Source of the DNA: Pseudorhizobium banfieldiae
GTDB taxonomy: Bacteria > Pseudomonadota > Alphaproteobacteria > Rhizobiales > Rhizobiaceae
DNA: 64,000 nucleotides
Assembly: GCF_000967425.1 (NCBI RefSeq)
Contig: NZ_FO082820.1
Coordinates: 2,232,001 to 2,296,000 of the forward strand
Direction: 5' to 3'
In this document: positions 11,400 through 14,216 of the stretch, in pieces
How positions within the stretch are numbered: the stretch's first letter is position 1
Layout: every line of letters starts with the position of its first letter
The notes under the pieces: generated by a model
What the model was told of the DNA's origin: nothing
The model's database searches: none
Seen by the model: only the letters and a program-made list of their open reading frames with translations
Translations under genes and position numbers: made by a program

Positions 11400-12860
11400 T
11401 CATGCAAAGCCTGCCGCAAGCGTTTGAACGGACTCCATATCCTGACGGAAGCGGATCATCTCCTTCGCCTTCAAGTCTGGATCCGGAATGCGCAGCAGAT
11501 AGGACGGGTGGACGGTCACGAAGAGGATCTGTCCATCCTCCATGGTCAGCGGCTTGCCTCGGACATCCGCGAGCTTCTGCTTCTCGTCCGTCAGTGCAAA
11601 ATAGGCCGTCGCTCCCATGGCGACGATCAGTTTCGGCTGCACGAGATCAAGCTCCTGCTTCAGCCACCAGCGGCATTGCTGGATCTCGCCTTGGTTCGGC
11701 TTCTGGTGGATGCGTCGCTTGCCACGCGCCTCGTACTTGAAGTGCTTCACCGCGTTGGTGACGTACAGAAAACGCCGATCAAGGCCCACCTCCTGCAGGA
11801 CGTCATTGAACACCTTCCCCGCCGGCCCGACGAACGGCCTGCCGGCAAGATCCTCCTGGTCGCCTGGCTGCTCCCCAACGACCATCACCTTCGCCTGCTC
11901 CGGCCCCTGCCCGAATACGGTCTGCGTTGCCATGCAGTGGAGCGGGCAACGGGTGCAGTGTCGCGCCTCTTGCCTGACCGCCTCCAGTGTTCCCGCAGGA
12001 GCCGTTGCAACCGGCGGCACGCTTTCCGCGGCAGCCTGAAGCCGATGGTGAAACGGCAGGGGCTCACTTGCAGCCTTTGCCGCCATCTCCAGCACATTGC
12101 GCTCGGCATTGGCGATAAGACCCGGAATAAGCTCCGCCTCAGGCAGGTTCTTCCAGTATTTCTTCGGCATCTCCGCCGTCATCGCCTTCACCTTCAATCG
12201 AGCAGGATTGAAGATGGATGCATAATAGGTCCGCCACAGATCATCCGTCTCGTCCTTGAGATGCGGCTTCTCCGCAGGCTCGGTCGTCGTGCGCAATGTC
12301 TCGCCATCCCAGGACGCCGATCCCTTGGGCGTCGCGATCAGCCAGTCCATGTCGTTGAACCGGCGTTGGAAGAAGGGTGCGACCCGCTCGACGATGAAAT
12401 GATCCGGCTCGAACCAGGCGACGAAGCGCCGCCGTCCGGCGGTTCCCGGTGGCAGCGGCAATTCCTTGAAACGCACAAAGGCCGTCATCTTGTGATAGTC
12501 ACGCCCGACGGACTTCGCCATCTGCCGTGCTTCCACCACATCGACATCGGCCGCCATTGCCAGTGTGTATCGGTCGCGCGCCAACCGGGCGAGGAGCCTG
12601 TAGAGCAGCGCGAAACGTCGCGGATCACTGTGGCAGACGACCGCGCCCGCTAGTTTAAGGAAATCGGGCGGCACCGAAATAGCTTTGCCCTGCACGCTCG
12701 GCGGCAGCACATTCTGCGGCTCGTCGGCAAAGAGGCCGCCCGTCGCGTCCGGCGTCTGCCAGACAACCTTATCCGGGTCCACACCGGCCTGGAGAAGCGG
12801 GCGCGCAGCCTCTCGCCACTCGCCAAGATCGCCCCTGCCCTCCAGCGTGACGGTATACAT
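11400..12860 (-). CDS. udgX: UdgX-type uracil-DNA-binding protein with N-terminal DUF4130 domain
   Basis: A 486-residue fusion of two DNA-metabolism modules. Residues 1 to about 260 match the DUF4130 domain linked to these loci (TIGR03915 type). Residues from about 295 form a family-4-like uracil-DNA glycosylase domain of the UdgX class, with GEQPGDQED at 329-337, the loop KRRIH at 381-385 and HPS at 451-453. In characterised UdgX the histidine of KRRIH forms a covalent bond with the abasic site after uracil excision, so the enzyme traps itself on DNA; His385 is its equivalent. Cysteines 302, 305 and 396 fit Fe-S ligands. Its start overlaps the stop of the radical-SAM gene (TGATG), indicating translational coupling and a shared, probably SOS-controlled, promoter. 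Confidence 0.93.
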   Translation of the reverse strand: MYTVTLEGRGDLGEWREAARPLLQAGVDPDKVVWQTPDATGGLFADEPQNVLPPSVQGKAISVPPDFLKLAGAVVCHSDPRRFALLYRLLARLARDRYTLAMAADVDVVEARQMAKSVGRDYHKMTAFVRFKELPLPPGTAGRRRFVAWFEPDHFIVERVAPFFQRRFNDMDWLIATPKGSASWDGETLRTTTEPAEKPHLKDETDDLWRTYYASIFNPARLKVKAMTAEMPKKYWKNLPEAELIPGLIANAERNVLEMAAKAASEPLPFHHRLQAAAESVPPVATAPAGTLEAVRQEARHCTRCPLHCMATQTVFGQGPEQAKVMVVGEQPGDQEDLAGRPFVGPAGKVFNDVLQEVGLDRRFLYVTNAVKHFKYEARGKRRIHQKPNQGEIQQCRWWLKQELDLVQPKLIVAMGATAYFALTDEKQKLADVRGKPLTMEDGQILFVTVHPSYLLRIPDPDLKAKEMIRFRQDMESVQTLAAGFA

Positions 12861-14092
12861 CAGAGCAGCGACAACTGTTCCGGCTTCGGCTCGAACATCG
12901 CCCGCAGATCCGGCCGGTCGACGAGGCGGTGCGGCGTCCAGCCGTCGACGGTGATGAAGGGCCGCACCCTCTTCAGCGACACGCCGAGCCGCTTCAGGTC
13001 GTCCAGCCGCAGCCGCGAAAACCGGCGCGCCGAGAGGATTGCCTTCACCGTCTTGGTGCCGAGCCCCGGCACTCGCAGCAGCATTTCCCGGTCGGCACGA
13101 TTGATATCAACCGGAAACCGGTGGCGATGCCCCAGCGCCCAGGCGAGCTTCGGATCGAGATCCAGATCGAGCATACCGTCTGCGCGCGCCGACGTGATCT
13201 CGCCGATATCGAACCCATAGAACCGGTAAAGCCAATCCGCTTGGTAGAGCCGATGCTCGCGCATCAGCGGCGGCTTGATTAGCGGAAGGTTCTTCGATGA
13301 ATCCGGAATGGGGCTGAAGGCGGAATAGTAGACGCGCTTCAGGCCATAGCTTCCATAGAGCCGCGCGCTCGTTCCGAGGATCGTTGCGTCATTGGCGCCG
13401 TCCGCGCCGACGATCATCTGTGTGCTCTGTCCGGCAGGAGCAAAACGGCGCTTTCGCTTCGTCTGCAGCGTCGGCTCGCTCATTTCCTCTATCTTGAGCC
13501 GCAGTTCGCCCATAGAGCGACGAATGCCATCCGGCTGCTTTTCCGGCGCATATCGGGTAATGCCGGCATCGGTCGGCAGTTCGATGTTGAGCGACAGCCG
13601 GTCTGCGTAGAGCCCCGCCTCCTCGATCAGATGAGGAGAGGCCTCTGGAATGGACTTGAGATGAATATAGCCCCGGAAGTTGTGAGTCGCTCTCAGTTCC
13701 CGGGCGATCCGCACCATCTCCTCCATCGTGTGGTCGGAGGAGCGGATGATGCCCGACGAAAGAAAAAGCCCTTCGATATAGTTGCGACGGTAGAACTCCA
13801 GCGTCAGCCAGATCACCTCCTCCACCGAGAACCGCGCCCGCTCCACATTGCTGGACGAGCGGTTGATGCAATAGGCGCAGTTATAGATGCAGAAGTTCGT
13901 GAGCAGGATCTTCAGGAGCGAGATGCAGCGACCGTCGGGTGCATAGGCATGGCAGATACCCGATCCTTCCGTGGACCCCAATCCGCCGGAAGCCTCCGAG
14001 CTGCGCTTGGCGGTACCGCTGGAGGCGCAGGATGCGTCATATTTGGCGGCGTCGGAGAGAATGACCAATCGTTCTTTTAGCGACTTCTTCAT
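12860..14092 (-). CDS. Putative DNA modification/repair radical SAM protein (UdgX-linked)
   Basis: A 410-residue radical SAM enzyme of the UdgX-linked group (TIGR03916 type). The Fe-S motif is CIYNCAYC with cysteines 68, 72 and 75. The C-terminal part (about 320-350) has a helix-hairpin-helix, VPGLGTKTVKAIL, a DNA-binding element, which supports a DNA substrate. The reaction is unknown. I chose ATG at 14092: a GTG at 14104 would lie inside the LexA-type box, and the predicted -10 element (TATAGT) places the transcript start within a few bases of this ATG, so the mRNA may be leaderless. It is translationally coupled to udgX downstream. The pair is a recognised but poorly understood bacterial DNA-repair module. 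Confidence 0.92.
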   Translation of the reverse strand: MKKSLKERLVILSDAAKYDASCASSGTAKRSSEASGGLGSTEGSGICHAYAPDGRCISLLKILLTNFCIYNCAYCINRSSSNVERARFSVEEVIWLTLEFYRRNYIEGLFLSSGIIRSSDHTMEEMVRIARELRATHNFRGYIHLKSIPEASPHLIEEAGLYADRLSLNIELPTDAGITRYAPEKQPDGIRRSMGELRLKIEEMSEPTLQTKRKRRFAPAGQSTQMIVGADGANDATILGTSARLYGSYGLKRVYYSAFSPIPDSSKNLPLIKPPLMREHRLYQADWLYRFYGFDIGEITSARADGMLDLDLDPKLAWALGHRHRFPVDINRADREMLLRVPGLGTKTVKAILSARRFSRLRLDDLKRLGVSLKRVRPFITVDGWTPHRLVDRPDLRAMFEPKPEQLSLL

Positions 14093-14098
14093 TAGTGC

Positions 14099-14127
14099 GT
14101 TCACTATATGTTCTTTTAAGTCGGGTC
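14099..14127 (-). promoter_or_regulatory. SOS (LexA) box and promoter of the radical-SAM/udgX operon
   Basis: On the minus strand the sequence GAACATATAGTGAAC (14113-14099) is an exact GAAC-N7-GAAC direct repeat, the LexA box of Rhizobiales and other alphaproteobacteria. It covers TATAGT, a 5-of-6 match to the -10 hexamer, and a TTGACC -35 box lies 15 bases further upstream. The ATG at 14092 follows by ten bases. LexA binding there would block the promoter directly. Box and spacing are seen in the sequence; SOS control is inference. Confidence 0.75.
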
Positions 14128-14216
14128 AAGGGACCGGTCGCAACTCCGCCGGGACCTTGAAACCGGCGCAACCCGCCCCATCTCGAAATTGCTGGAACTT
14201 TCGCGATGATCTCTGT

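Follow-up and report, generated by a model that had tools for sequence, protein, structure and literature searches.

A probable SOS operon of Pseudorhizobium banfieldiae encoding a radical-SAM protein with a putative clamp-binding tail and a DUF4130-UdgX fusion

Pseudorhizobium banfieldiae is an alphaproteobacterium in the family Rhizobiaceae. The window analysed here is a stretch of 64,000 nt of its genome (contig NZ_FO082820.1, positions 2,232,001 to 2,296,000 of the forward strand), and the subject is a two-gene operon on the minus strand of this window, which encodes a radical S-adenosylmethionine (radical-SAM) protein and a protein in which a DUF4130 domain is fused to a UdgX-type uracil-DNA glycosylase (UDG). 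The operon is preceded by an exact LexA-type box that is conserved in place among related loci, and it is very probably under SOS control. The features of the locus, numbered within the window and given in the direction of transcription, are as follows.

14124..14129, minus strand: -35-like TTGACC
14099..14113, minus strand: LexA-type operator GAAC-N7-GAAC, GAACATATAGTGAAC, an exact match
14103..14108, minus strand: -10-like TATAGT within the operator, spacer 15 (variants in relatives: TTTAGT, TATAGA, TATATA)
14096, minus strand: predicted transcript start A14096, 4 nt before the ATG, placed from the position of the -10
12860..14092, minus strand: radical-SAM protein with a helix-hairpin-helix, 410 aa, TIGR03916 (rSAM_link_UDG), 575.9 bits (cut-off 343.5)
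13925..14029, minus strand: three invariant cysteines, C22, C47 and C56, before the radical-SAM motif (1.00 columns in 199 aligned proteins)
13868..13891, minus strand: CxxxCxxC radical-SAM cluster motif, C68, C72 and C75 (alignment and sequence check)
13019..13111, minus strand: helix-hairpin-helix, residues 328-358 (PF12836, E 2.7e-5, 24.6 bits, cut-off 27)
12863..12877, minus strand: QLSLL, a sliding-clamp-binding-type peptide, residues 406-410 (Q406 in 199/199 aligned proteins)
12858..12862, minus strand: TGATG stop/start overlap of the two genes (sequence check)
11400..12860, minus strand: DUF4130-UdgX fusion protein, 486 aa (family models)
12135..12836, minus strand: DUF4130 (TIGR03915) domain, residues 9-242, 218 bits (cut-off 112.25)
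11427..12131, minus strand: UdgX (TIGR03914) domain, residues 244-478, score above the cut-off
11706..11720, minus strand: KRRIH loop, with H385 aligned to His109 of Mycobacterium smegmatis UdgX

The promoter is arranged much as an initial annotation of this DNA had described it: the exact GAAC-N7-GAAC lies at 14113-14099, it overlaps the -10 TATAGT with TTGACC 15 bases further upstream, and the two genes overlap as TGATG (12862-12858). The 3′ end of the operator lies 6 nt before the ATG of the radical-SAM gene (14092). An in-frame GTG at 14104, chosen as the start in the list of open reading frames (ORFs), was rejected, given that the box-to-ATG distance is 5, 6 or 7 nt across the genus and the GTG is not always in frame. 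Conservation of the box was first followed in a nearest set of 60 genomes (own included), with TIGR03916 matches in 34 and matches over the cut-off in 32; 30 loci were retained (29 relatives and the window's own), the over-cut-off matches in G015 and G039 standing outside the set, and these comprise 29 loci of the genus (own included) and one from another family. The alignment of relatives' upstream regions that the initial annotation had proposed gives an exact box in 30/30 of these loci, 5-12 nt before the start codon (5-7 nt in the genus, 12 nt in the other-family locus), and in each of the 29 genus loci the distance from an upstream TTGAC to the box is exactly 11 nt. Within the genus, G002, G014, G015, G008, G009, G019 and G023 include three members with fragments or a split copy and four without a match, which suggests repeated loss.

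The same positional conservation extends across the class. In a class-wide draw, in which 18 of 289 genomes (own included) scored over the TIGR03916 cut-off, an exact box begins no more than 60 nt from the model match in 16 of the 17 other loci. A phylum-wide draw added genomes over the cut-off (84 of 398), and in the combined set the window's class contributes 94 loci, taken as alpha, and the other classes of its phylum 29, taken as beta/gamma. When the search was confined to positions 150 to 30 nt upstream of a conserved codon, with expectations taken from mononucleotide shuffles, the alpha box was found in 93/94 class loci (own included) against 0.31 expected, and the gamma-type box CTGT-N8-ACAG in 0/94. 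These loci are mutually related and the counts are not independent events; in a hand tally by family group, 16/17 groups have the alpha box and 5/8 have the gamma box in exact form. It is the conservation of position, not the occurrence of the motif, that makes the box significant.

Outside the class the type of box switches with lineage. In the other classes of the phylum, CTGT-N8-ACAG precedes 19/29 loci and the alpha box none (0/29). A scan of named genomes, limited to the best 80 of 581 confirmed stretches as ranked by similarity to a Psychrobacter-like query, retained 78 loci, L198 and L225 having failed a motif filter. Among its 68 Bacteroidota loci, a count that excludes L226 and L171, the 200 nt upstream contain CTAA-N5-TTAG in 21 and GGA-N5-TCC in 17, never both together, where shuffles would give 0.42 and 0.92, respectively; these are the two Bacteroidetes motifs described in PMC8565304. 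In the Bacillota, the gene pair on a Pusillibacter faecalis plasmid is preceded by two GAAC-N4-GTTC boxes. At least four kinds of LexA-type box before one gene pair, with the fifth (Bacillota) kind seen once, would mark the pair as a steady SOS effector. An exact box of any type tested was found in 0/8 loci of the Moraxellaceae (Psychrobacter, Moraxella, Acinetobacter), a family that is not known to possess LexA, and the records read for L236, L237 and L238 contain no exact LexA-type box fitting their lineage. Several other upstream regions have features of their own. Four Chryseobacterium loci (L157-L160), among the 30 Bacteroidota loci with neither tested motif, have GAAC-N7-GAAC with alpha-type spacing upstream, although the LexA motifs known from their phylum are different ones. 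L096, L108 and L119, which belong to one family and have no gamma box, have in common a palindrome, CTGAA-N3-TTCAG, about 100 nt before the radical-SAM anchor, possibly the site of another regulator; two of the three additionally carry GGTCTCATCCAATGAGACC, and the Xanthomonas-type LexA box, TTAG-N6-TACTA, was looked for in all three and not found. L226, from a metagenome-assembled genome titled Saccharospirillaceae, has a Bacteroidota-like gene with two GGA-N5-TCC boxes and is perhaps mis-binned.

The host genome itself has the expected regulon. It encodes one LexA and one RecA over the cut-off. The longest lexA frame opens 20 nt after the end of a box, another box starts 184 nt before the recA model match, and imuA, of an imuA-imuB-dnaE2 cassette, begins 20 nt after the end of a third box, which reads GAACATAAAGTGAAC on the strand of that gene. 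Ten further boxes were picked for AT-rich spacers among 100 listed of the 162 matches in the genome: six precede repair-like genes (uvrA, dinB, two ligase-D-like genes, radA and an SplB-like radical-SAM gene), and the other four (L144, L148, L149, L150) have no recognisable repair gene behind them. The names dinB/imuB and dnaE2 are backed by PF11799 and PF02811, and the other repair-gene names come from reading translations. The two ligase-D-like loci (L142, L143) have an identical box, GAACATAATGAGAAC, which ends 58 nt before the start in both, and each has a similar divergent ORF. The operon thus shows the marks of the alphaproteobacterial LexA regulon, namely an operator in the promoter, its conservation in orthologues, and a genome with LexA and RecA in which core SOS genes are boxed. 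Control by LexA, as the initial annotation had supposed, is strongly supported at the level of sequence by a box conserved in place, by box types that switch with lineage, and by the same box at the host's own lexA, recA, imuA and repair genes, and SOS control of the operon is accordingly rated as very probable.

This control is already known in outline. COG4277 corresponds to TIGR03916. A COG1573-COG4277 operon has been placed in Bacteroidetes SOS networks, with SOS regulation predicted, and control of a UDG system of this kind by the SOS response had earlier been reported for Alphaproteobacteria and Verrucomicrobia (PMC8565304). By its partners this 'UDG base excision repair' operon, LexA-controlled there and in the Caulobacter and Verrucomicrobia reports cited there, is the same as the one described here. 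It is labelled there as a uracil-DNA glycosylase system, whereas in the present loci DUF4130 is the constant partner and UdgX is fused to it in some lineages, which qualifies the published label. The Caulobacter LexA box is given as GTTCN7GTTC in PMC9578287 and PMC12700426, the main text of the latter containing neither 'uracil' nor 'radical SAM', and PMC1839093 has CC2333 among the Caulobacter UDGs. Caulobacter vibrioides is itself among the species with a match in the search for the radical-SAM family. The NCBIfam models TIGR03916, TIGR03915 and TIGR03914 are all matched above cut-off here, with no difference in kind; what is added here is the clamp-type tag and the SOS box. The tag, the geometry of operator and start, and the split into core and add-on were not met in the open-licence literature searched.

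The position of the operator has a consequence for the transcript. Since the -10 lies inside the operator, transcription is predicted to start at A14096, leaving a leader of 4 nt. The box ends no more than 8 nt before the start codon in 60/93 alpha loci, the commonest distances being 2 nt (21 loci) and 6 nt (19 loci), and with the 2-nt distance the predicted start would be the A of the ATG itself. Shine-Dalgarno-like strings, scored with a loose pattern and with start codons picked by rule, occur in 7/60 of these short-distance loci versus 17/33 of those with a longer distance. On this geometry, which suits the leaderless transcript suggested in the initial annotation, a near-leaderless mRNA start is somewhat favoured.

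The radical-SAM protein ends in KPEQLSLL. The consensus for binding to the β sliding clamp is QL[SD]LF, with six-residue forms such as QLSLGF. The tail was compared in 199 radical-SAM proteins, 121 from the whole-genome set (own included; 121 of 123 loci, as L053 and L099 lack a complete reading) and 78 from the named-genome scan. A strict tag, Q[LM]xL[FLWMI] within the last 15 residues, is present in 173/199 proteins versus 2.5/199 shuffled tails, 1/5,178 internal windows and 3/1,277 other ORFs (minimum length 150 aa; many are spurious frames). A relaxed pattern, which is weak, having been composed after the tails were inspected, matches 199/199 (shuffled tails 15.8/199, internal windows 97/5,178, other ORFs 18/1,277). 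Amongst 30 representatives below 70% identity, 23 have the strict and 30 the relaxed tag, and of five radical-SAM proteins outside the 199 (L198, L225, L235, L237, L238) two have the strict tag, L238 has the relaxed one and L198 ends in QTSLFG. The strict tag is kept at loci where a gap separates the next long ORF (14/17, and 22/23 where the gap exceeds 30 nt), and gene overlap therefore does not account for it. Two results count against clamp binding: the gut phage copy L237 has a radical-SAM reading without the tag, and the strict motif occurs nowhere in the host genome's DinB, ImuB and DnaE2 as read, which leaves the comparison without a positive control. With these taken into account, the sequence pattern still indicates that the tail probably binds the β clamp. 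The enzyme would then act at replication or repair forks, the search for its substrate would be narrowed, and the tag would offer a five-residue handle for testing.

The strongest alternative accepts the SOS-controlled operon and takes QLSLL to be a tail conserved for its structure or for docking to a partner, DUF4130 for example. The structure model gives residues 405-408 a short helix at low confidence within a disordered tail (residues 404-410, predicted local distance difference test below 50), which would suit docking, as would the lack of a strict tag in the genome's DinB, ImuB and DnaE2. The pattern nevertheless matches the clamp consensus in Proteobacteria and Bacteroidota alike and after a variable linker, and its final residue may be F, L or W; a docking or structural tail is accordingly regarded as unlikely, whilst being the alternative that fares best.

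What the radical-SAM protein catalyses bears on the second alternative. Its assignment to TIGR03916 rests on the score, the CxxxCxxC motif and the TIGR03915 partner, and PF04055 is also over its cut-off, with HHH_3 and HHH under theirs. The family is widespread. The window protein has exactly six cysteines, namely C22, C47, C56 and the three of CxxxCxxC. The radical-SAM barrel and extra cysteines before CxxxCxxC are shared with lipoyl synthase, HydE and biotin synthase; identity to these enzymes is 10-17% in the best matches, and the window protein differs by its helix-hairpin-helix and its repair context. That it is instead an SplB-type photoproduct lyase is improbable. In favour of this reading, PMC3765255 ties DUF4130 to 'SplB-like radical SAM photolyases'; spore photoproduct lyase (SPL) is not among the 50 matches listed in the comparison with the radical-SAM protein, an absence that excludes nothing.

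The second protein was only partly captured by the initial annotation, which had paired the radical-SAM gene with UdgX. Both are indeed present, and the UdgX assignment is borne out by the TIGR03914 score, the KRRIH loop with its histidine and the UdgX fold; the description was incomplete in that the second protein is a DUF4130-UdgX fusion and its constant part is DUF4130. The M. smegmatis UdgX (6ail, 6ajo, 6l6s) differs from the window's UdgX, which is fused behind DUF4130 and adjoins a radical-SAM gene. DUF4130 adjoins the radical-SAM gene in 119/121 proteobacterial loci, 91/121 have the fusion to UdgX, and in 27/121 the stretch covered (less than 900 nt for L112 and L122) contains DUF4130 and no match to a UDG. 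In the named-genome set the longest downstream ORF is at most 305 aa (69 of the 78 loci have one), and 63/63 partners, picked from the 78 loci by a length of 230-300 aa and their N-terminal letters, match DUF4130. The short partners and the proteobacterial loci without a UDG indicate that the core pair can exist with no UdgX fused to it, though no search for a UdgX was made in the remainder of those genomes. By gene content, the radical-SAM protein and DUF4130 are the constant core and UdgX is an add-on in some lineages.

These counts also bear on a UdgX-centred system, in which the radical-SAM protein and DUF4130 would restore or remove a UdgX-DNA adduct. The fusion at 91 of the 121 loci would fit such a system, as would His385 in the KRRIH loop, given that His109 of M. 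smegmatis UdgX is the covalent residue (PDB titles agree). Set against it are the 27 proteobacterial loci that have DUF4130 and no UDG match in the stretch covered, and the 63 DUF4130-matching partners of the named-genome scan, which are short and have no fused UdgX; it is considered slightly more improbable than the SplB-kind lyase. That the box is a chance match before a gene with a constitutive promoter is very improbable: two matches in 64 kb are indeed at shuffle level, but a fixed position in 30/30 and 93/94 loci and lineage-specific boxes elsewhere are not explained by chance.

Taken together, the findings favour, with a probability of about 0.7, an SOS-controlled and near-leaderless operon whose clamp-tagged radical-SAM protein and DUF4130-UdgX protein process damaged DNA near the replisome. 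LexA bound to GAAC-N7-GAAC would cover the -10 and block RNA polymerase; its RecA-driven cleavage would allow transcription from about 4 nt before the ATG and so yield a nearly leaderless mRNA. The C-terminal tag would tether the radical-SAM enzyme to the β clamp, UdgX fused to DUF4130 would cap uracil-derived sites covalently, and the two proteins, working alongside the SOS polymerases, would most likely act on damaged DNA close to the replisome. Several findings weigh against parts of this scheme. Chance alone often yields the motif (the window has 2, versus 1.83 expected from shuffles; in the 4.58-Mb genome, 162 versus 100 matches to the reversed pattern), and the optimal promoter spacer is 17 bp, which makes that of 15 bp short. 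The near-leaderless geometry is not universal, the box lying farther off in 33/93 class loci, 17 of them with a Shine-Dalgarno-like string. Elsewhere, 10/29 loci of the other classes have no exact gamma box (five of these are one mismatch away), and neither tested motif is upstream in 30/68 Bacteroidota loci. A broader proposal, that the radical-SAM/DUF4130 pair is a widespread clamp-tethered SOS effector carrying out radical-based repair at stalled forks, with an extra cluster on C22, C47 and C56 and with UdgX optional, so that uracil excision is not at its heart, is tentative and falls somewhat short of even odds.

Further observations concern the individual genes. Invariant residues of the DUF4130 domain (12836-12135, minus strand) in 59 sequences include H123, R130, P152, R167, W173, Y212, R221, Y235, W236 and E241, and by these DUF4130 looks like an enzyme. 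Structure-search lists for the second protein were filled by matches to its UdgX domain. The host genome has a second, stand-alone UdgX gene (L240; G000:C1:2813973-2814563), with no GAAC-N7-GAAC in the 2.5-kb stretch covered. A defence system was considered and rejected, PADLOC giving no match, and a search of PHROGs gave weak matches only. The radical-SAM gene has matches in ten phage records (H41-H50), of which eight are uncultured and come from human faeces, and in the uncultured gut phage L237 a DUF4130-like ORF, recognised by eye, adjoins it. The radical-SAM gene is also found on 158 plasmid records, of which 58 are from Phaeobacter and 142 are typed as non-mobilizable.

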